A stretch of DNA of 45,203 nucleotides from positions 1 to 45,203 of the IMG/VR virus record IMGVR_UViG_3300035016_000004. One strand, written 5' to 3'. Shown here one piece after another: positions 76 through 45,128 of the stretch; within the stretch, counting starts at the first letter, position 1; each line of letters opens with the position of its first letter. Under the pieces are notes generated by a model that saw only the letters and a list, made by a program, of their open reading frames with translations, ran no database searches and was not told the DNA's origin. The DNA comes from a virus. The translations under genes and the position numbers were made by a program.

Positions 76-127
76 TTGCGCCTGGCAGGGGCTGGGGGAC
101 TCGAACCCACGACCCTCGGTTTTGGAG
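76..127. repeat. attL: attL, 52-bp direct repeat
   Basis: Identical to 45077..45128. The repeat covers the 3' part of tRNA-Trp from the anticodon loop through CCA plus seven bases beyond it. The flanks diverge at once on both sides (a75 versus g45076, g128 versus a45129). This is the distal copy, next to the small Cys-rich gene and far from the integrase. Confidence 0.95.
83..127 (-). pseudogene. tRNA-Trp 3' fragment in attL
   Basis: This is the 3' 45 nucleotides of tRNA-Trp, from the anticodon loop to the encoded CCA. The sequence upstream of it (128 rightward) is phage DNA and cannot form the D arm or the 5' acceptor strand, so the fragment is not functional. It marks the displaced 3' end of the original host gene. 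Confidence 0.9.
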
Positions 128-24739: not shown

Positions 24740-25312
24740 TCAAGCAGCGTCTGCTATGTCTGCCTTTCCATCCTCAAGCATTGTTCCCAGGATCCGGGCC
24801 CGCTCGCCAGCCGCCCTGATCACCAATGGCCGATCCTTCGCCGCCTTGAGCTTGAGGTTGGTATGGGTGCGCAAGACGCCACGCCCCTGGACGCTGATCA
24901 GTGCGGCAGAGCGCTCTACCTCTTGACCCTTATGCAGCACCAGATGGCGCTCTAGAGTGAGCTGACCGTCCAGTTGCCGGCCCCGATACTCCAGCCAGCC
25001 ACGGCTCGCGGTATCAATGCGGCGTGGCCGGCCGTCAACCGACAGCACGCCATTGACCAAGTGCATGGACATGACCCGATACCAGACAGGTGCGGTCGGG
25101 AAGCCCACGAAAATGGTCCCTGATATCGTGGCGTGAGCGACTTCCATCTTCCCTTTCGAGTATCGGTTCTTTTTGCGGAACCTGGTCGATGTTGGGATGA
25201 AGGTCATGGCTCCCATCTTGTTCAGCAGGTAGCCGGCCACGTATTCCTTCTGACGCACCACATCGAGCGCATACCAGTGGAGCTCGTCATCGTCATATTG
25301 CCGCTTAGCCAT
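24740..25312 (-). CDS. NusG-like (NGN domain) transcription antitermination factor candidate
   Basis: Residues 11-100 resemble the NusG N-terminal domain: WYALDVVRQKEYVAGYLLNK, then MTFIPTSTRFRK, GTIFVGFPTAPVWYRVM and NGVLSVDGRPRRI. NGN domains bind the RNA polymerase clamp. The C-terminal 85 residues lack a recognisable KOW motif. It lies just before a strong terminator and the whole structural operon, the place expected for a late-gene antiterminator. Its ATG overlaps the 3' end of a 53-codon gene. RfaH/LoaP-type paralogs work in the same way; the target here is inferred. Confidence 0.82.
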   Translation of the reverse strand: MAKRQYDDDELHWYALDVVRQKEYVAGYLLNKMGAMTFIPTSTRFRKKNRYSKGKMEVAHATISGTIFVGFPTAPVWYRVMSMHLVNGVLSVDGRPRRIDTASRGWLEYRGRQLDGQLTLERHLVLHKGQEVERSAALISVQGRGVLRTHTNLKLKAAKDRPLVIRAAGERARILGTMLEDGKADIADAA

Positions 25313-27391: not shown

Positions 27392-27564
27392 GCTGCCCTC
27401 CGCTCTTGCTCTGCTGCCCATGCAACGAGGTCGTCTGCCTGTTTCTTCGATAGGCCTTGAGCCTGCCGGCGCTTACGTCTGGCGACATGCATGTCAGGGG
27501 TGGAGATTTCCCATTGGCGGGTTTGTAGTTCGGCTATTGCCCATTGATGGTTGCTGTTGGTCAT
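27388..27564 (-). CDS. Small hypothetical protein (58 aa)
   Basis: ATG overlaps the methyltransferase stop and its TGA overlaps the DnaA-like ATG, giving a fully coupled slot. Basic centre (ARRKRRQAQGLSKKQ) between Trp-rich and Ala/Glu-rich helices. It resembles the small helical proteins found near phage replication genes, with no known function. Confidence 0.65.
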   Translation of the reverse strand: MTNSNHQWAIAELQTRQWEISTPDMHVARRKRRQAQGLSKKQADDLVAWAAEQERRAA

Positions 27565-28907
27565 GCAGCGTCTCCATCGAATAGCGGGGTGCCTTCGGCG
27601 CCCTGCAGCTTGTTCTTTGACTTGGCCACCGCCGCGCGCTTTGTCGGGTTCTGGGCAAGCTCCATGCGGCGGGCAATATCGGCCTGATATTCTGGCTCGC
27701 GCTCGATCAGCACGGCCCGCATGCCCTCACGGAATGCTGCCTCGCCAGTTGTGCCGGTACCGGCGAACGGGTCGAGCACGCTACCGCCCGGCGGCGTCAC
27801 CAGCCGCACGAGGTATTGCATCAGGTCAACAGGCTTCACGGTTGGGTGCTTGGAGCCGATACGGTCATCAGCATCGGCCTTACTCGAATAGAAGAACCGC
27901 GCTGCTGATCCGGAGTTTGCGCCCTTTGGTGCGGTCATCGAGACCGTAGGGTCGCCATAGGTGTTGACCTTGGATCGCGCGGTGCCAACTGCAGGTCCGC
28001 CTCCGCTATCGGTATCGGGGAATGCCGCCAAAACCTCTTCGCTGCCGTCGTGGATGATGTTAGCGGGCCAACGGCCATTCGCGCTGCCGACCATCACCGC
28101 CGCAGGCTTCCAACTATCATCCTCATGCGGAAAATCGTTGCCGCCGCCACGCTTTAGATTTCTGGTGTCCGCATCACCAACGCGACATCCGCCGATGTTG
28201 ATTGCTCCGGTACCGTGCTCCAGCACGTTCTCAGCAACGGTCCCGCCAAGCGGCTTGCGGGCCATGACAATCGGTTCCCACGCTGGCTTGAGGGCGGTAC
28301 CCCAGCCCTCCCAGTAGGCGGCGGCTGGCGTTGCCGGTACCGTGATGGGCGACTGTTTCAGTTCCTCAAACGCCCGCGCGCCGACGATCTCCCCACCCTT
28401 GCGGGCGGATCGGGCAATTCCAGCACGGACGGTACCGACGACCTCGCGGTCTGCCCCTGCCCGCTTGTCGATGCCCTTGCTGACATCATGCGACTTCGGA
28501 AAGCCCGATCCATAAGCCCAGCCGATCTGGTCGCGGATCTCAAAGCCCGCGTCCTCGATGGCAACAGCCAGTCGGTGATAGGTGCGGGTACCGCTGAAAG
28601 CGAGGACATGGCCGCCGGGCTTCAGAACGCGCAGCACCTCTGCCCAAAACGTTTCGGCAAAGGCGGCTTCGCCATTGTCCCATTTCTTGCCCATGAACCC
28701 CGCGCCAGTGCGGCCATAGGGGTTTCCGATATTCTCCGTGCGCTCATTGCGCGGAGAATTGGCGAACCGCTTTGATATGGAGACCAGGGCATAAGGCGGA
28801 TCGCACACGACGGAGTCGATCGACGCATCTGGAATATCGCGGATCATCTCGCGGCAATCGCCAGCGTGGAGCGTCACGCGGCCATCGAGGAACTGCTGAA
28901 CTGTCAC
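27561..28907 (-). CDS. N4/N6 DNA methyltransferase, beta-type order (448 aa)
   Basis: Motif IV DPPY is at residues 36-39 and motif I (VLDPFAGTGTTGEAAF) is near residues 377-392. In this order the S-adenosylmethionine motif comes last, as in the beta class of site-specific methyltransferases. The central 250 residues supply the target-recognition region. No partner restriction gene is next to it, so it is an orphan methylase, useful to phage as protection from host restriction. Target sequence cannot be inferred. Confidence 0.9.
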   Translation of the reverse strand: MTVQQFLDGRVTLHAGDCREMIRDIPDASIDSVVCDPPYALVSISKRFANSPRNERTENIGNPYGRTGAGFMGKKWDNGEAAFAETFWAEVLRVLKPGGHVLAFSGTRTYHRLAVAIEDAGFEIRDQIGWAYGSGFPKSHDVSKGIDKRAGADREVVGTVRAGIARSARKGGEIVGARAFEELKQSPITVPATPAAAYWEGWGTALKPAWEPIVMARKPLGGTVAENVLEHGTGAINIGGCRVGDADTRNLKRGGGNDFPHEDDSWKPAAVMVGSANGRWPANIIHDGSEEVLAAFPDTDSGGGPAVGTARSKVNTYGDPTVSMTAPKGANSGSAARFFYSSKADADDRIGSKHPTVKPVDLMQYLVRLVTPPGGSVLDPFAGTGTTGEAAFREGMRAVLIEREPEYQADIARRMELAQNPTKRAAVAKSKNKLQGAEGTPLFDGDAA

Positions 28908-32345: not shown

Positions 32346-33062
32346 ATGCTGCTCGCCATGAAATGGTGGGAACGACTTCAGGCTCGGATTGATGAGCTCG
32401 GCTGGAACAAGGCCGAGCTCCACCGGCGCTCGGGCATCTCTTACGACAGCCTCAATAAGTACCTTCGTGGCGAGGTCGACAACCCCCGCGGCAATGTTCT
32501 CGAGATCTTGGCGAAGGCGATCGACAAGACGGCTCTTTGGCTCAAAGAGGGCATCGAGGCGGAAGGAGCAGAGGTCCGACGCATCTCGCGCTCTCCCGGC
32601 ACTGCGCCCGTTGTGGCGATCGTGGAGGCCGGCGCCTGGCGTGAAGTGGATGAGCTGGCGCAGGATGATCCCGAATGGGTCACCGTCCCAGCAGACGACA
32701 AGTTCCCCGACGCAACCCAGCGCGTCTATGACGTCGCCGGCGACAGCATGAATGCACTGCTGCCGCACCCCATCACACCCGGATCGCGTTTGGTCGCTAT
32801 CGACTATGACGAGATCGCCAACCGCTCGCCACTTCGCAGCGGCCTGGTCGTGGTGATCCAGCGCTCGAAGAATGGCGGCCAGGAGCGGGAGCTCTCGGTG
32901 AAGCAGGTCGAGTGGTTCGAGGATCGGATCGAATTTCAGCCGCGATCAACCAACCCCAAGCACAAGCCGATCGTCGTGGAGCATGACAACTGGGAAGACA
33001 ACGGCGTTGAAGTGGCCATCGTCGGACTGGTGAGGGATATCATCCATAGGTTGCCGGGATGA
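32346..33062 (+). CDS. CI-type phage repressor with S24 autopeptidase domain (238 aa)
   Basis: The N-terminal HTH (about 9-62; WNKAELHRRSGISYDSLNKYLRG) is followed by the LexA/CI peptidase domain. The cleavage pair Ala95-Gly96 lies in VEAGAW, the Ser nucleophile is Ser134 in GDSM and the general base is Lys186 in ELSVKQ. It keeps the prophage silent and should self-cleave after DNA damage. It starts at ATG 32346 (ATG 32358 alternative), six bases after the operator region. Leads a coupled rightward group. Confidence 0.93.
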   Translation: MLLAMKWWERLQARIDELGWNKAELHRRSGISYDSLNKYLRGEVDNPRGNVLEILAKAIDKTALWLKEGIEAEGAEVRRISRSPGTAPVVAIVEAGAWREVDELAQDDPEWVTVPADDKFPDATQRVYDVAGDSMNALLPHPITPGSRLVAIDYDEIANRSPLRSGLVVVIQRSKNGGQERELSVKQVEWFEDRIEFQPRSTNPKHKPIVVEHDNWEDNGVEVAIVGLVRDIIHRLPG

Positions 33063-36921: not shown

Positions 36922-37061
36922 CCTCCGTCCTTACCACCAAGTTCACCTGCGACCACAAGGGCAACTGGACTGAGGTTCCTGTGATCCTGACTCGTTCTGG
37001 AAATGGATGGGTGGAGAGTGCTCCGCCGACACTGCCGATTGTCCGAAAGGAAGCAGCATGA
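36918..37061 (+). CDS. Small hypothetical protein before C5-methyltransferase (47 aa)
   Basis: ATGA overlaps on both sides. Sequence MTSVLTTKFTCDHKGNWTEV has one Cys-x-His pair and beta character. It may be a short accessory of the methyltransferase that follows. Confidence 0.55.
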   Translation: MTSVLTTKFTCDHKGNWTEVPVILTRSGNGWVESAPPTLPIVRKEAA

Positions 37062-38902
37062 ACGCTCAGCTTCCTCCATCCTTCTGGCAACTCGACCAGG
37101 CCGGGCCCGACGACATCGAACTGATCGTTGACAGCTTCGCCGGTGGCGGTGGGGCATCCACTGGCATCGAAATGGCCCTTGGCCGCTCGCCTGACTACGC
37201 CATCAACCACGATGCCGAAGCCCTGGCGCTGCACGCCGCGAACCATCCCGACACGGTCCACCTCAGCAAGAACATCTACAAGGTCGACCCGATGGACGTG
37301 GTGGGCCGCCGCAAGGTGGGGCTGCTGTGGGCATCGCCGGACTGCAAGCACTTTTCCAAGGCCAAGGGCGGCGCACCGGTGAAGCGCGAGATCCGCGACC
37401 TGGCGTGGACGGTGGTGCTGTGGGCGGAGCGCGTGCGTCCGCGCGTGATCATCCTGGAGAATGTCGAGGAATTCCAGACCTGGGGGCCGCTGATCGAGAC
37501 GCCCAAGGGCATCTTCCCCTGCCCAGACCGCAAGGGCGAGACGTTCAAGGAATGGATCGGCGCGCTCAAGAAGCACGGCTACAAGGTCGAGTGGAAGGAA
37601 CTGCGCGCCTGCGACTATGGCGCCCCAACGACGCGCAAGCGGCTGTTCCTGATCGCCCGCTGCGACAACCAGAAAATCGTCTGGCCTGCGCCGACGCACG
37701 GCGCAGGCCGGCTGCCCTACCACACCGCCGCCAGCCATGTGATCGATTGGTCGATTCCGTGCCCATCGATATTCGACACGTCCGAAGAGATCATGGCCAA
37801 GCATGGCGTCCGTGCCATCCGTCCGCTGGCCGAAAACACGATGGCCCGTATCGCCAAGGGCGTGAAGCGGTACGTGCTCGACGCGGCCAAGCCGTTCATC
37901 ATCAAATTCCAGACTGGCGCTGTCGGCTCCGACGTAGACGCCCCGCTGCCAACCGTCACTGCCAACAGCTTTATAAAGCGCCCGGGCGGGGCCGCGCCGC
38001 TCGGCGTTGTCATGCCTCACCTGATGACCATGCGGAACGCCGGCAAGCCCCATAACGAGGCTGACAAACCCACCCATACCGTCACGGCGGGCGGCGCTGG
38101 CCTTTCCCTGGTCGCCCCGGTCCTCTCGTCCGCCCAGCATGGCGGTTCGCACCGTTCGGCCGACGAGCCGCACCGGACCATTGCCGCCAGCGACAAGGAC
38201 CAGAACCAGATTATCGCCGCCACGATGGTGCAGACGGGCTACGGCGAACGGCCAGGGCAGGAGCCCCGGGCCCTGGATATCGGCAAGCCGCTGGGCACGG
38301 TTGTAGCCGGTGGGGCGAAGCATGCCGTCGTCTCCGCCTTCCTCGCCCAGCACAATACAATGCCCGGCGGCGGTATTCATGCCGGCCATCATGCCGACGA
38401 GCCGGTCTCGGCCGTCACAGCAACGGGCAGCCAGCAGACTGTTGTCTCCGCCGGCCTGATGAACATGAAGGGCAGCGACCGACGCATGACCAGCGTCGAG
38501 GAGCCAAACCCGACTGTTACCGCCGACGGCACTCACCAGGCCGAGGTCCGCGCCTTCCTGATGAAATACTATGGCGTCGACCAGGATCCCCGTATCGAGG
38601 AACCACTGTCGACGGTCACCACCAAGGACCGTTTCGGCATCGTCACGGTCGAAGGCGAGCCATACCAGATCGTGGACATCGGCATGCGAATGCTGACCCC
38701 GCGCGAGTTGTTCAAGGCCCAGGGCTTCCCCGCCGATTACGAGATTGAAACGGGCGTCTTTGCCGATGGCGAGCGGCGGCAGCTGACCCGCACGGCGCAG
38801 GTCCGCATGTGCGGCAACAGCGTCTGCCCGCCCATCGCTGCCGCCCTGGTGCGCGCAAATTGCGCGGACATGGCCGTTCAGATGGAAGAGGCAGCAGCAT
38901 GA
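37058..38902 (+). CDS. C5-cytosine DNA methyltransferase with repeat-rich C-terminus (614 aa)
   Basis: Motif I FAGGGGASTG (27-36) binds S-adenosylmethionine; the catalytic Cys96 lies in SPDCKHFS (a variant of the usual P-C-Q/F-S motif, as in several phage enzymes); ENV is at 134-136 and RKRLFLIAR is motif VIII. From about residue 300 the chain repeats a P-x-x-T-V-T-A-like unit at least five times (target-recognition region), then a final RELFKAQGFPADYEI motif. No restriction partner is adjacent. It starts at ATG 37058, coupled to the gene upstream. Protection from host restriction is likely. Confidence 0.92.
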   Translation: MNAQLPPSFWQLDQAGPDDIELIVDSFAGGGGASTGIEMALGRSPDYAINHDAEALALHAANHPDTVHLSKNIYKVDPMDVVGRRKVGLLWASPDCKHFSKAKGGAPVKREIRDLAWTVVLWAERVRPRVIILENVEEFQTWGPLIETPKGIFPCPDRKGETFKEWIGALKKHGYKVEWKELRACDYGAPTTRKRLFLIARCDNQKIVWPAPTHGAGRLPYHTAASHVIDWSIPCPSIFDTSEEIMAKHGVRAIRPLAENTMARIAKGVKRYVLDAAKPFIIKFQTGAVGSDVDAPLPTVTANSFIKRPGGAAPLGVVMPHLMTMRNAGKPHNEADKPTHTVTAGGAGLSLVAPVLSSAQHGGSHRSADEPHRTIAASDKDQNQIIAATMVQTGYGERPGQEPRALDIGKPLGTVVAGGAKHAVVSAFLAQHNTMPGGGIHAGHHADEPVSAVTATGSQQTVVSAGLMNMKGSDRRMTSVEEPNPTVTADGTHQAEVRAFLMKYYGVDQDPRIEEPLSTVTTKDRFGIVTVEGEPYQIVDIGMRMLTPRELFKAQGFPADYEIETGVFADGERRQLTRTAQVRMCGNSVCPPIAAALVRANCADMAVQMEEAAA

Positions 38903-39114
38903 AGAAGCTCACCGACCAAGACCGTCATCTCCTCCAAAGAGTATCAGCAGCAGGAGGATCTCATTGCTTCCGCCAGGAGGACAATATCCCAGCAGCTGGA
39001 CATAAGGCTCTGAGGGGATTGGCTGGGCGTGGGTATCTGACCGTTGAGGCTACCGATGATGGGCCGCTGGTGACGCTCACCGCTCAGGGTCGGGCGGAGG
39101 TGGATCATGGCTGA
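38899..39114 (+). CDS. Small winged-helix-like protein (71 aa)
   Basis: Overlaps the methyltransferase stop as ATGA. DQDRHLLQRVSAAGGSHCF, then HKALRGLAGRGYLTVEATDD looks like a two-helix plus wing fold. Possibly a DNA-binding protein. Its last 8 bp overlap the DUF4326 gene. Confidence 0.6.
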   Translation: MKKLTDQDRHLLQRVSAAGGSHCFRQEDNIPAAGHKALRGLAGRGYLTVEATDDGPLVTLTAQGRAEVDHG

Positions 39115-39481
39115 GCGAATCCAGCTATCCCGCCGCAAGGGTTGGCGCATGCCGGCCAACACCGTGAAGGTCAGCCGCCCCGGCAAGTTCGGCAATCCCT
39201 TCCCCGTCAAGAAAGCCACATCCACCACGATGGGCGTGACCTCTGATGTTTGGATTGTCGGAACTTGGGAAGGCCCTGCCCTCTGGATCAAGCACTCAGA
39301 AGCCGAAGCCATAGAATTGGCGGTCAAGGCCTATCGCGCTTGGATCACCCATCCTGCGCAGTCGGCGCTTTTGGCCGGCGCTCAACTCGAATTGCGCGGC
39401 CAGGATCTCGCCTGCTGGTGCAAGCCCGGCCAGCCCTGCCATGCTGATGTGCTGCTGGAGCTTGCCAATGCCCCGGCATAA
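39107..39481 (+). CDS. DUF4326 domain protein (124 aa)
   Basis: IQLSRRKGWRMPANTVKVSRP, GKFGNPF and LACWCKPGQPCHADVLLELAN match the DUF4326 family, found in many phages and bacteria and of unknown activity. The three conserved cysteines C102, C104 and C110 sit in the C-terminal motif and could bind a metal. It is coupled to both neighbours. Confidence 0.88.
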   Translation: MAERIQLSRRKGWRMPANTVKVSRPGKFGNPFPVKKATSTTMGVTSDVWIVGTWEGPALWIKHSEAEAIELAVKAYRAWITHPAQSALLAGAQLELRGQDLACWCKPGQPCHADVLLELANAPA

Positions 39482-39869: not shown

Positions 39870-40255
39870 CAGCCGTAATGACCACACTGACTGACCTGCT
39901 GGAGCGGGTGAAGGCGGCGACGGGGCCGGATCGGGAATTGGATCACGCCCTATGGTTGCACTTCGATGAAACGGCAAAGGCCAAACATGACGCGGGGCGC
40001 ATCCCGCTGCCGTGGACGTGGTGCCTGACCAGTTCCGTAGATGACGCCCTTGCTCTGGTGGAGCGGTTGCTGCCGGGTACGGCTAGTGAACGAACTTCGT
40101 GGCGCAACCACTATCGTTGCACTCTCATCGAGACTGACGAAAAGGGCTGGCACAACGGCGGGAAGCATTTCCGGGTTGATGCATCAAGCGAAGCATCGGA
40201 GCCCCTCGCCATCATCGCCGCCCTTCTCCAAGCACTCACCCAGGAGCCGAAATGA
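39866..40255 (+). CDS. Hypothetical protein (129 aa)
   Basis: ATGA overlaps both neighbours. LTDLLERVKAATGPDRELDHALWL and WTSSVDDALALVERLLPG type segments, with a conserved Trp in the middle, are common in proteins of Rhizobiales phages; the activity is unknown. Sits one gene upstream of the DpdA-like module. Confidence 0.7.
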   Translation: MTAVMTTLTDLLERVKAATGPDRELDHALWLHFDETAKAKHDAGRIPLPWTWCLTSSVDDALALVERLLPGTASERTSWRNHYRCTLIETDEKGWHNGGKHFRVDASSEASEPLAIIAALLQALTQEPK

Positions 40256-40995
40256 CCACCAAGGAACAGCTATCGACTGAGAGGCTGGATGAAATGCTGG
40301 CGGATTGTGAAGGCGCGACGATGGTCGGCATTGGAGGGTGGCGCTACACGGCGACCGTCACTTTCGACACCATGCGCGAAGTCCTCACCCTCGCCAAGTC
40401 TGCCCTGCGTGGGGATGGCCTCTCCCTAGTTCGGACTGCCCTAAACCGCGCTGAGGCATTCGCTTCGGACTACGAGTTCGACAGCGACGAGGGCTGCCAC
40501 ACGCCGTCTGACATTGAACGCATGCTTATGCTCGACATGCTAAACGGGCTGTTCGATGACGAAGAGTTCGTCAAAGCAATCACCCGACCCCTCTCCGCTA
40601 TCAGCCTATCCCCTGCGGGTGGGGGTGATGCCTGCGGGACGTGCGGCGGGACTGGCGAGATTGACCAGTTTGCTGGCGGCGGGTGGCCCGGACAGGCAAT
40701 GCAACACGTTCCGTGTCCCGACTGCGCCACCCTCTCCCAGCCCAATACCCATGAGGGGGAGGCTGTGGCTTGGCGACCCACCTATGAGCAGATCATCGAA
40801 CTGGTGGAAGCCTGCCGAGTGCGCAGGGACAAGGCGGGCGAAAGCTCGCGTATGATGTCCAAGTGGATCAGCGAAGGTCTCAACGCCCTCTACGCCCATC
40901 CTCCACGCCCTGAAACAGTGACGGATGGCACGACGAAGCGCCCAAGTAATTGGGGTGAGTGGGAGCGCCAGCAGCAAGAGAGCGAGCGAGAATGA
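40252..40995 (+). CDS. Hypothetical protein with DnaJ-like zinc knuckles (247 aa)
   Basis: N-terminal half is helical (EQLSTERLDEMLADCEGATM and LSLVRTALNRAEAF). The middle (about 127-160) has CGTCGGTGEID and later CPDC, a two-knuckle zinc site like the DnaJ type (C-x-x-C-G). The C-terminal 70 residues contain WRPTYEQIIELVEACR. It is coupled by ATGA to the DpdA-like gene and may be an accessory, but no direct evidence exists. Confidence 0.7.
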   Translation: MTTKEQLSTERLDEMLADCEGATMVGIGGWRYTATVTFDTMREVLTLAKSALRGDGLSLVRTALNRAEAFASDYEFDSDEGCHTPSDIERMLMLDMLNGLFDDEEFVKAITRPLSAISLSPAGGGDACGTCGGTGEIDQFAGGGWPGQAMQHVPCPDCATLSQPNTHEGEAVAWRPTYEQIIELVEACRVRRDKAGESSRMMSKWISEGLNALYAHPPRPETVTDGTTKRPSNWGEWERQQQESERE

Positions 40996-41594
40996 TCGCT
41001 CTACTCGACAATGGGCAGGACCTAGACCAGTGTGCCGCCGAGTTAGGCTGCGACGTTGGCCAGTTATTGACTGCTCTTACTCGCTACACATTGCGCGACC
41101 CGACGAAGCCATGGGCAATCGACAATGGCGGGTACAAAACCCTCGACATCCCAGCGTTGCTGGCACTGCTAAAGCGAGAGGAGCATCACAAGGAAGCCTG
41201 CCTATTCGTCGCCGTCCCCGACATTGTGGGGTCTGCGCGGCGCACGATTGAAGTGTTTGAGCACTGGAAGCCTCGGCTGCAGGGATGGAAGCTAGCCCTA
41301 GTTTGTCAGGACGGCCAAGAACACCTCCCGATCCCATGGAATGATATTGACGCGGTGTTCATCGGCGGCACTACCGCATGGAAGTGCGGCCCCCATGCCG
41401 AACACATCATCCGCGCCGCCAAAGCGCTTGGGAAGCATGTCCACGCCGGACGCGTCAACAGCCCCGAACGCTTTTCACATTTTGAAAAGCTCGGTGCTGA
41501 CACCTGTGATGGGACGGGCATCGGACGATACAGCCACATGCGCGAGGCAGTAGCCGGGCGCGACAATCAAAGGACATTGCTCGATGCAGTTTAA
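40992..41594 (+). CDS. DpdA-like / tRNA-guanine transglycosylase superfamily enzyme (200 aa)
   Basis: The chain has the order of TGT active-site segments: AIDNGGY with Asp44 (compare DSGGFQ of TGT), VPDIVG with Asp77, FIGGTTAW (GG at 125-126), HAGRVNS, and GADTCDGT whose Asp173 aligns with the TGT nucleophile. The C-terminal zinc-binding C-x-C-x-x-C of tRNA TGTs is absent and the length is about half, as in phage DpdA enzymes that insert a 7-deazaguanine base into DNA. It is immediately followed by a queuosine-precursor transporter gene. A tRNA-acting or unrelated TIM-barrel function is possible but less likely. Confidence 0.82.
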   Translation: MIALLDNGQDLDQCAAELGCDVGQLLTALTRYTLRDPTKPWAIDNGGYKTLDIPALLALLKREEHHKEACLFVAVPDIVGSARRTIEVFEHWKPRLQGWKLALVCQDGQEHLPIPWNDIDAVFIGGTTAWKCGPHAEHIIRAAKALGKHVHAGRVNSPERFSHFEKLGADTCDGTGIGRYSHMREAVAGRDNQRTLLDAV

Positions 41595-42201
41595 GACAAT
41601 CGCCGCCATTGCTGGTTTCGCCCTCACGGTCCCCGCCGCCAACTGGCTTATTGGGAATGTTGGGACTCAATTCGAGCCGAACGGACCCCACCTCATTCCC
41701 GTAGGGTTCGGGCTCATGGCCCCTTCGGGCGTGTTGATGGTCGGGGCTGGCCTAGTCTTGCGTGACATGGTGCACGAACTGGGCGGATGGCGCACCGCTT
41801 TTGCCGCAATACTTGTCGGCGCTATCCTGTCCTGGTTTGTGGCGCCGCCTGCATTGGTTGTCGCATCTGTGGCGGCATTCGCCCTGGCGGAGACTGCGGA
41901 CCTTCTTGTCTATGCGCCGCTGAGAAAGCGCCGTCTCGGGCTTGCCGTGCTACTCAGCGGGATAGTCGGAGCCGCTGTGGATAGCGCGGTGTTTCTATGG
42001 CTCGCCTTTGGTTCGCTCGCCTTTATCGAGGGGCAGATCCTCGGAAAGGTATGGATGAGCGCTGCGGCGTTTCTGGTGCTATTCGCCGTCCGCCGTTGTT
42101 GGTTCGGGCATCGGTGGGGCACGGTCGAAGCGGGTGGGCCTAACGGCTGGTTGCTCGCCAAATGCGACCGCTGCGGCCACTGCCCGAACCCGATGGTGTA
42201 G
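41584..42201 (+). CDS. VUT/YhhQ-type queuosine-precursor transporter with zinc tail (205 aa)
   Basis: About five or six transmembrane segments (roughly 6-24, 39-58, 70-100, 113-136 and 145-165). Motifs include GLVLRDMVHELGG, ETADLLVYAPLRKR and VDSAVFLWLAFG, typical of the VUT family that imports preQ0/preQ1 or queuine. The last 35 residues after the final helix hold CDRCGHC, a knuckle not usual in the family. AAAGGA precedes the ATG, which overlaps the DpdA-like stop. It should feed base substrate to the upstream enzyme. Confidence 0.85.
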   Translation: MQFKTIAAIAGFALTVPAANWLIGNVGTQFEPNGPHLIPVGFGLMAPSGVLMVGAGLVLRDMVHELGGWRTAFAAILVGAILSWFVAPPALVVASVAAFALAETADLLVYAPLRKRRLGLAVLLSGIVGAAVDSAVFLWLAFGSLAFIEGQILGKVWMSAAAFLVLFAVRRCWFGHRWGTVEAGGPNGWLLAKCDRCGHCPNPMV

Positions 42202-43619: not shown

Positions 43620-43883
43620 ATGAAGCTACCCGCCCCGCCCAAGCGCATGCTGACCAAGGACGAGGCCGCAAGTTATTGCGGCTTCCCGACCACTGCACGC
43701 TTCGAAACTGCATGCCGCACCCACGTTGAGCCTGTGAATTACGGTAACTGTGTGCGCTATGATCGCGTCCGGCTCGATGAATGGCTGGACAGCATGACCG
43801 CTTCTCCGGCTTCTCTTGAGCAGAGCATCATCGAGGCCGCTTTCAGTGCTGGTAAAGGTCGTGGGCATAAAGCGATACAATGA
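43620..43883 (+). CDS. Excisionase / MerR-type HTH candidate (87 aa)
   Basis: MLTKDEAASYCGFPTTARFE resembles the N-terminal helix of excisionases and AlpA-like DNA-binding proteins, and RYDRVRLDEWLDSM is the typical wing/helix end. It lies directly upstream of the integrase, as excisionases do, and overlaps it by about 38 bp. It probably bends att DNA and directs excision. Confidence 0.8.
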   Translation: MKLPAPPKRMLTKDEAASYCGFPTTARFETACRTHVEPVNYGNCVRYDRVRLDEWLDSMTASPASLEQSIIEAAFSAGKGRGHKAIQ

Positions 43884-45000
43884 CCGGCATGGCCGGCCCA
43901 GGCTCTATTACCGGCGCAAGGGCTGCCCGACCGTCGCCCTGGATCCGAGCCTGAGCGGCACCGAGCTGGCCGCCGAGGTCAACCGGCTGGACAAGCTCTA
44001 CAAGCCCTTCGCCATCCGCGCGAACACGCTGCGCTCGCTCGTGGCCGCTTACCAGGACAAGTCCAACCACTGGAAGGGCCTACGGCAGCGGACGCGCGAC
44101 GACTACGAGCGCGTTTTCAAGCTGCTCGGCACCACCCAGGACAACACGCTGTCGGTCTTCACTCCCCCGCTAATCGCCGGTCTTCGTGACAAGGCACGCG
44201 ACGAGAACGGCTTCAAGTTCGCAAACCAGATGCTTGTCACGCTCAACAGCGTCTTCAGCTTCGGAGTCGAGTATGGGCATGTGCCGTCGAACCCGGTATC
44301 GGAGATCAGCAAGATTGCGCGGCCGACCGACCTTCCCGAGGCGAACCGCCCATGGACGCCCAACGAGGCTGTGGCACTGATGAAGGCGCCGATCTATCTC
44401 GCGGCACCGATTGCCATGGCAGCGTATCTCGCCCTGCGCGAAGGTGACATCCTCAAGATGTCCAAGGCGGCGATCACTGAGCGACTTTTGGCTATCACGA
44501 CGAGCAAGACCCGACGGGCGCTCGAGTTGCCCGTGTGCGATGATCTCTGGTCGATTCTGCTGGCCTACCAGAAGTGGCGAATGGCGCTTTGGGATGCGAA
44601 GCGCGAGCGCGCAAGGAAGCGAAGGCCGCTAGAAGACGTTCAGGACCTGGTGACGACGATGTTCGTCAACTCCAGGGGAGCAGCGTGGACGGAGGATGGC
44701 TTCAGGACGTCATGGGGGAAATGGCGCGACCAACTCGAGGATGCCGAGAAGATCGGCGCCGGGGTCACGTTCCATGGCGGACGGCATACCGTCGCCACCA
44801 TCCTCGCTGAGTGCGGCTTCGAGCCCCAGCAGGTGAAGCATCTACTGGGCCATGGCACCGAGACGATGACGGAGCACTATCAGCGCCGCGCCAAGCGCCG
44901 CGGCATGCTCAAAGACATGACCGACGCCGTACAAAAGGCCTATCGGCTGGGCGGTGAGAATGTCGTCCTGCTGGGGCAAGTCGGGAACGAGAACGGCTAA
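43846..45000 (+). CDS. int: Tyrosine recombinase integrase (384 aa)
   Basis: Catalytic residues are all present: Arg198 (LREGD), Lys221 (TSKTRR), His310 and Arg313 (FHGGRHT), His336 (LLGHG) and Tyr345 (MTEHYQRR). A SAM-like core-binding domain precedes them at about 60-150. GTG 43846 is preceded by GAGG nine bases upstream and overlaps the excisionase gene; an upstream TTG (43816) or downstream GTG (43861) are alternatives. It recombines attP with the 3' end of tRNA-Trp, 77 bp downstream. Full-length, intact. Confidence 0.95.
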   Translation: MLVKVVGIKRYNDRHGRPRLYYRRKGCPTVALDPSLSGTELAAEVNRLDKLYKPFAIRANTLRSLVAAYQDKSNHWKGLRQRTRDDYERVFKLLGTTQDNTLSVFTPPLIAGLRDKARDENGFKFANQMLVTLNSVFSFGVEYGHVPSNPVSEISKIARPTDLPEANRPWTPNEAVALMKAPIYLAAPIAMAAYLALREGDILKMSKAAITERLLAITTSKTRRALELPVCDDLWSILLAYQKWRMALWDAKRERARKRRPLEDVQDLVTTMFVNSRGAAWTEDGFRTSWGKWRDQLEDAEKIGAGVTFHGGRHTVATILAECGFEPQQVKHLLGHGTETMTEHYQRRAKRRGMLKDMTDAVQKAYRLGGENVVLLGQVGNENG

Positions 45001-45076: not shown

Positions 45077-45128
45077 TTGCGCCTGGCAGGGGCTGGGGGA
45101 CTCGAACCCACGACCCTCGGTTTTGGAG
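45077..45128. repeat. attR: attR, 52-bp direct repeat
   Basis: Identical to attL at 76..127. It lies 76 bp after the integrase stop. It covers the 3' part of tRNA-Trp, so phage DNA restores a complete tRNA after integration. Confidence 0.95.

Follow-up and report, generated by a model that had tools for sequence, protein, structure and literature searches.

A prophage in an IMG/VR virus record of 45,203 nt, analysed over its full length and referred to below as the window, contains two overlapping genes that probably act together in hypermodification of phage DNA. In the reading that we consider likely, ORF A is a minimal phage member of the TGT/DpdA superfamily of transglycosylases that places a 7-deazaguanine in DNA and is fed by import through ORF B. 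The established basis of this proposal comprises a fold model of ORF A, its conserved residues, its homology to phage DpdA, the overlap of the two genes and the association of the ORF A family with genes for 7-deazaguanine metabolism. The coordinates of the features are collected in the table.

Table. Features of the prophage discussed in the text, with positions in the window.
Feature	Position	Strand	Remarks
Short DpdA-like protein (ORF A)	40992-41594	+	200 aa, phrog_15826; likely 7-deazaguanine (base-exchange) transglycosylase
Vut_1/YhhQ-family (QPTR) membrane protein (ORF B)	41584-42201	+	205 aa, phrog_4899; likely 7-deazaguanine base importer
247-aa ORF, no assigned function	40252-40995	+	ATGA overlap with ORF A start, same gene run
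Orphan C5-cytosine DNA methyltransferase	37007-38902	+	631 aa
Orphan N6/N4 DNA methyltransferase	27561-28907	-	448 aa
Tyrosine integrase	43816-45000	+	
Left attachment-site core	76-127	.	52 bp
Right attachment-site core, inside tRNA-Trp	45077-45128	.	52 bp
Repressor-like protein	32346-33062		
DUF4326 gene	39107-39481		within ORF A/ORF B gene run
NusG-like protein	24740-25312	-	190 aa

Reading of the open reading frames bears out the two genes and the 11-bp overlap described in the original prediction. ORF A runs from an ATG at 40992 to a stop codon at 41592-41594, ORF B starts with an ATG at 41584, and the shared stretch is 41584-41594. The ATG of ORF A itself shares bases with the stop codon of the 247-aa ORF before it (ATGA, 40992-40995), so that A and B belong to a close-packed plus-strand run starting at the C5 methyltransferase. 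An integrated prophage is delimited by a 52-bp direct repeat, whose right copy lies in a tRNA-Trp gene beside the tyrosine integrase; judged from these ends, the prophage is intact. A repressor-like protein together with head, tail and packaging genes is consistent with a temperate tailed phage. The temperate lifestyle and the two methyltransferases that had been predicted, one of N6/N4 and one of C5 type, are thus both borne out, as is the absence of queD, queC and folE from the window; profile searches there found no queE either. The DUF4326 gene within the run has a relative in locus L022, no more than 1.2 kb downstream of the short DpdA, and another in L105, about 4.5 kb off. Elsewhere in the window, the NusG-like protein is possibly a phage antitermination factor.

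ORF A matches only one family, phrog_15826, which PHROG labels 'unknown function'. Nothing above cut-off was found in Pfam or NCBIfam, the Pfam search giving a weak EAL match at E 0.017. Relatives are nevertheless widespread: an IMG/VR scan recovered at least 374 on virus contigs and an alignment-based scan found 30 loci in bacterial genomes, where a scan with the single ORF A sequence had returned no match. Across an alignment of 66 members, P76, D77, Q106, F123, G125, G126, K131, H151 and D173 are invariant and D44 (at least 90% conserved), N45, D107, G108, G153, R154 and N156 nearly so. The active-site segments named in the original prediction (D44, D77, the FIGG motif and D173) are therefore correct; D173, the Asp that follows Cys in ADTCDG, matches the position of the TGT nucleophile. 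Against its nearest relatives ORF A shows a dN/dS of about 0.06-0.14 where dS is computable, indicating that the gene is maintained under purifying selection. The 200-aa sequence has no CxCxxC...H cysteine cluster and so, as had been claimed, lacks the zinc site of tRNA TGT, but this absence does not distinguish it from canonical phage DpdA, since the phiG7 protein is likewise devoid of the site.

Structure prediction and comparison with TGT had been put forward as a check of the original prediction, and a TGT-like TIM barrel was obtained. AlphaFold, run on the alignment of 66 relatives in place of the single sequence (pLDDT 48.5), produced a complete eight-stranded barrel with a pLDDT of 96 and a pTM of 0.92. 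In this model strands 3, 4, 5, 6, 7 and 8 precede D44, D77, Q106, G125/126, G153 and D173, respectively, with H151 alongside G153 among the conserved residues at the strand ends. The counterparts in Zymomonas TGT are Asp102, Asp156, Gln203, Gly229/230, Gly261 and Asp280. A Foldseek search of the PDB returned thiazole synthase on top, followed by many tRNA-guanine transglycosylases (E 2e-5 to 1e-4), and its matches among viral models include the queuine tRNA-ribosyltransferases of Mycobacterium phage Bella96 and Arthrobacter phage Sonali. VIA-align placed pyruvate kinase and other TIM barrels above TGT, which was absent from the top rows; fold alone thus does not settle function. Indeed, TIM barrels are mutually similar, and the barrel is a necessary but not a sufficient basis for assigning one. 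Taken with the barrel, the order of the residues in the model supports the pattern of the TGT/DpdA superfamily.

Profile comparison links ORF A more specifically to phage DpdA. Aligned by hhalign with a canonical profile built from phiG7, R29Z, Sonali gp87, Pam5 and RHph_N3_2, the ORF A family scored E 2e-6 with 89% probability over 143 columns; D44 is paired with the DSG aspartate, D173 with the CD aspartate, and the GG motifs are aligned as well. The DpdA of Rhizobium phage RHph_N3_2 provides a bridge, matching both phrog_887 (7e-51) and phrog_15826 (7e-5), and together these results support the proposed distant homology. In three short-form records a weak phrog_887 match falls at the short gene itself. 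Like phage DpdA (phrog_887; Hutinet et al. 2019, PMC6884629), ORF A combines a TGT-like barrel and motif order with preQ0 synthesis genes or a YhhQ-type transporter as neighbours. Unlike canonical DpdA, it stays, when searched alone, below the cut-off for phrog_887 and for Pfam DpdA (PF23859), is ~200 rather than ~306 aa long, lacks the DpdA C-terminal part and carries a TGT-like Gln106 where the canonical proteins have His. The direct relatives in GreaseLightnin (Mycobacterium), Aoka and Sonali (Arthrobacter) and ReqiPine5 (gp03; Rhodococcus), with ~39-46% identity over the matched part, come from phages of actinobacterial hosts and are called 'DpdA-like tRNA-guanine transglycosylase' by annotation alone; in GreaseLightnin, Aoka and ReqiPine5 a VUT gene adjoins the short DpdA, as in the window.

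By contrast, comparison with a bacterial TGT profile was not significant, even with 31 TGT sequences, and we therefore claim homology to phage DpdA only. Canonical phage DpdA reached a best E of 0.0025 in the same test. Searches of PDB sequences by phmmer and profile found no TGT for ORF A, nor did the Pfam TGT family (PF01702) match. In the hhalign alignment with E. coli TGT, whose score is non-significant, the D44, Q106, GG and DxxD regions are in register. Bacterial TGT shares the fold and has the motifs DSGG, QG, GG and FDC where ORF A has DNGG, QDG, GG and CDG, but it is a protein of ~375 aa with a zinc site.

The second gene was predicted to encode a queuosine-precursor transporter, and membership of the YhhQ-type family is supported by a Pfam Vut_1 (PF02592) match above cut-off (40.7 versus 27.2 bits). 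ORF B has about six hydrophobic segments, of which two overlap. It shares these and the Vut_1 domain with YhhQ/QPTR (PF02592/COG1738) but belongs to a distinct phage branch and has an extra Cys-rich tail. Because it falls below the cut-off of the NCBIfam equivalog TIGR00697, 'queuosine precursor transporter' (41.3 versus 50.95 bits), its substrate is suggested by gene context only. That context recurs with other DpdA families. Pseudanabaena phage Pam5 and Rhizobium phage RHph_N3_2 have a phrog_887-type DpdA beside the same transporter family, and Sinorhizobium phage phiLM21 has a Pfam DpdA there. In a CAjan-like Seuratvirus record, the corresponding protein is labelled 'preQ0 transporter' with reference to CAjan. 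The pairing of different DpdA families with one transporter family is good evidence that the two partners cooperate, with the short form standing in for a DpdA. The ORF B tail (residues 172-205; 42097-42198), with the Cys/His pattern WFGHRW...KCDRCGHC, resembles a small zinc ribbon and is missing from the VUT relatives that we read.

Across the family, the predicted connection to the 7-deazaguanine pathway is supported by gene neighbourhoods. Relatives were grouped at 80% identity, and the surrounding sequence was searched with QueC, QueD, QueE, FolE, VUT (YhhQ-type transporter) and canonical DpdA as queries. With iterated profiles, 37 of the 83 clusters had such a gene within 1.5 kb of the short gene (33 by single-sequence search), compared with 0.4% of equal-sized distal windows, taken from the same loci no closer than 4 kb, a roughly hundredfold enrichment; more than half of the clusters have no known supply gene nearby. 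Counted on the well-supported branches of a tree, the VUT neighbour changed at least four times and Que neighbours at least six, indicating repeated gain or loss of the association. Where the short DpdA is closely related to ORF A, the gene at the neighbouring position is either VUT (L022, L023, L026, L029, L035, L038 and L072) or a divergent QueD-like gene (L024, L025, L027, L030, L032, L033 and L101), the latter with sub-threshold PTPS matches in the two tested and an HGHTYEV motif in L101. In locus L091 the Pfam-confirmed order is QueD-shortDpdA-QueE-QueC-FolE, and the short form is the only DpdA found. Searches of QueC-positive records, one of them 55.5 kb, for phrog_887, phrog_7068 and Pfam DpdA found none, although controls for the last two matched nowhere and several of the records are fragments. 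VUT was considered as a constant companion of the short DpdA and rejected, being present in only 10 of 56 other records. Seven loci (L057, L058, L066, L075, L080, L085 and L094) have a lone QueD beside the short DpdA and no other preQ0 gene detected nearby; these phages look as if they supply one step of a host pathway only.

An association of this kind concerns the 7-deazaguanine pathway and not DNA as such, and it would also be compatible with ORF A as a TGT-superfamily enzyme whose substrate, for base exchange or release, is tRNA or a free nucleoside or nucleotide, the pair then scavenging queuosine precursors. Known TGTs and transporters of the superfamily do serve tRNA, and QPTR-TGT fusions have been reported for tRNA salvage (PMC11130926). 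We regard this alternative as unlikely, however, because ORF A has neither a Pfam TGT match nor the zinc site nor the tRNA-binding C-terminal part, its profile is nearest to phage DpdA and not TGT, the family is carried on hundreds of virus contigs, and the short gene can adjoin DNA polymerase genes.

The last arrangement is seen in phiG7 (L010:11932-12524) and SHIN8 (L164:1432-2024), both Seuratvirus records with a canonical DpdA, where the short DpdA lies between polymerase beta-subunit and polymerase genes. In both it is split, at the same place, into two overlapping ORFs in different frames, so that the short gene seems dispensable there; a CAjan-like record (L131) lacks it. Short and canonical forms also occur together in R29Z and Sonali. 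Such coexistence, and the frameshifted copies, could mean that ORF A is an accessory that needs a canonical DpdA or shifts its site preference, and that it has little or no activity alone in this prophage. This we consider decidedly improbable: strong canonical matches number three in 57 short-form records, by which a general accessory role was rejected, and some QueC operons contain no candidate inserter other than the short form. Even less credible is some other TIM-barrel activity, such as that of a phosphodiesterase or a sugar-phosphate enzyme, with no part in 7-deazaguanine metabolism, since the high rank of other barrels in VIA-align and Foldseek and the weak EAL match are set against the gene enrichment and the TGT/DpdA residue pattern.

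For the preferred reading, insertion of a 7-deazaguanine into DNA, we infer a DNA substrate, the identity of the base, catalytic roles for the residues, the transport substrate and protection of the phage. ORF A would take selected guanines out of phage DNA by forming a covalent intermediate through Asp173, while Asp44 would serve as the general acid/base and the incoming base would be recognised by Asp77 and Gln106. The replacement would be a 7-deazaguanine, preQ0 or a near relative, and import of the base or a precursor by ORF B would keep the pool sufficient during infection. Related phages could meet this need with genes placed next to the same enzyme, either a single one (QueD, QueC or QueE) or an entire preQ0 operon. 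The modified DNA would be poorly cut by guanine-reading restriction enzymes.

Published precedents bear on this scheme in different ways. Deletion of the CAjan DpdA abolishes modification and restores sensitivity to restriction (PMC6884629), and kinship to phage DpdA thus points to DNA as the substrate of ORF A. Among phages with DpdA but without synthesis genes, the DpdA-only phage Orion has no detectable 7-deazaguanine and Salmonella phage 7-11 has trace dADG (PMC6884629); in Pantoea phage MED16, about 0.13% of Gs are modified, with little effect on restriction (PMC8306585). Given these mixed results, we offer anti-restriction in this prophage as a hypothesis. The host may also contribute. 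QueC, TGT and two Vut_1 transporters are all encoded in the Novosphingobium assembly that is the nearest cellular carrier of a short DpdA, and in a similar host the phage importer would supplement the supply and not be its sole source.

DpdA-only phages, phage YhhQ and possible precursor import were all described in 2019 (PMC6884629), and some short relatives already bear a DpdA-like label in phage records. The points that appear to be new are that phrog_15826 forms a coherent subfamily of short DpdA proteins, that it is repeatedly coupled to just one supply gene, and that it occurs as the sole DpdA found in preQ0 operons, whether complete or partial; in the part of the literature covered, we found no paper describing the family in these terms. 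A wider proposal, on which we are evenly divided, is that phrog_15826 constitutes an undescribed, widespread class of very small, stand-alone DNA 7-deazaguanine transglycosylases, forming a two-gene plug-in with one supply gene (importer, QueD, QueC or QueE) that tops up the host pool, and that here the importer alone may support DNA hypermodification. If so, a family labelled as of unknown function in hundreds of phage contigs would join the anti-restriction toolbox. Hutinet et al. (2019) left open whether DpdA-only phages modify their DNA and whether YhhQ feeds DpdA (PMC6884629); both questions could be tested in a compact, easily cloned form with the short family, whose supply genes are interchangeable. 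Should the short form prove active on its own, it would provide a minimal tool for the insertion of 7-deazaguanines into DNA.

Two further features of short-DpdA loci were noted. A PAPS-reductase-like PP-loop protein is encoded near the gene in 7 of the 83 clusters, compared with 2.4% of distal windows (L013:3517-4434, L016:7343-8386 and L126:9090-9878; also L108, L123, L125 and L129). The short DpdA is also found in several actinobacterial genomes, with loci in Nonomuraea, Nocardia and Actinomadura. In the Nonomuraea loci L125 and L126 (L126:7098-10636), a C5-methyltransferase-like gene and a PP-loop gene are followed by the short DpdA, an arrangement that may represent an integrated element or else a modification island of the host.
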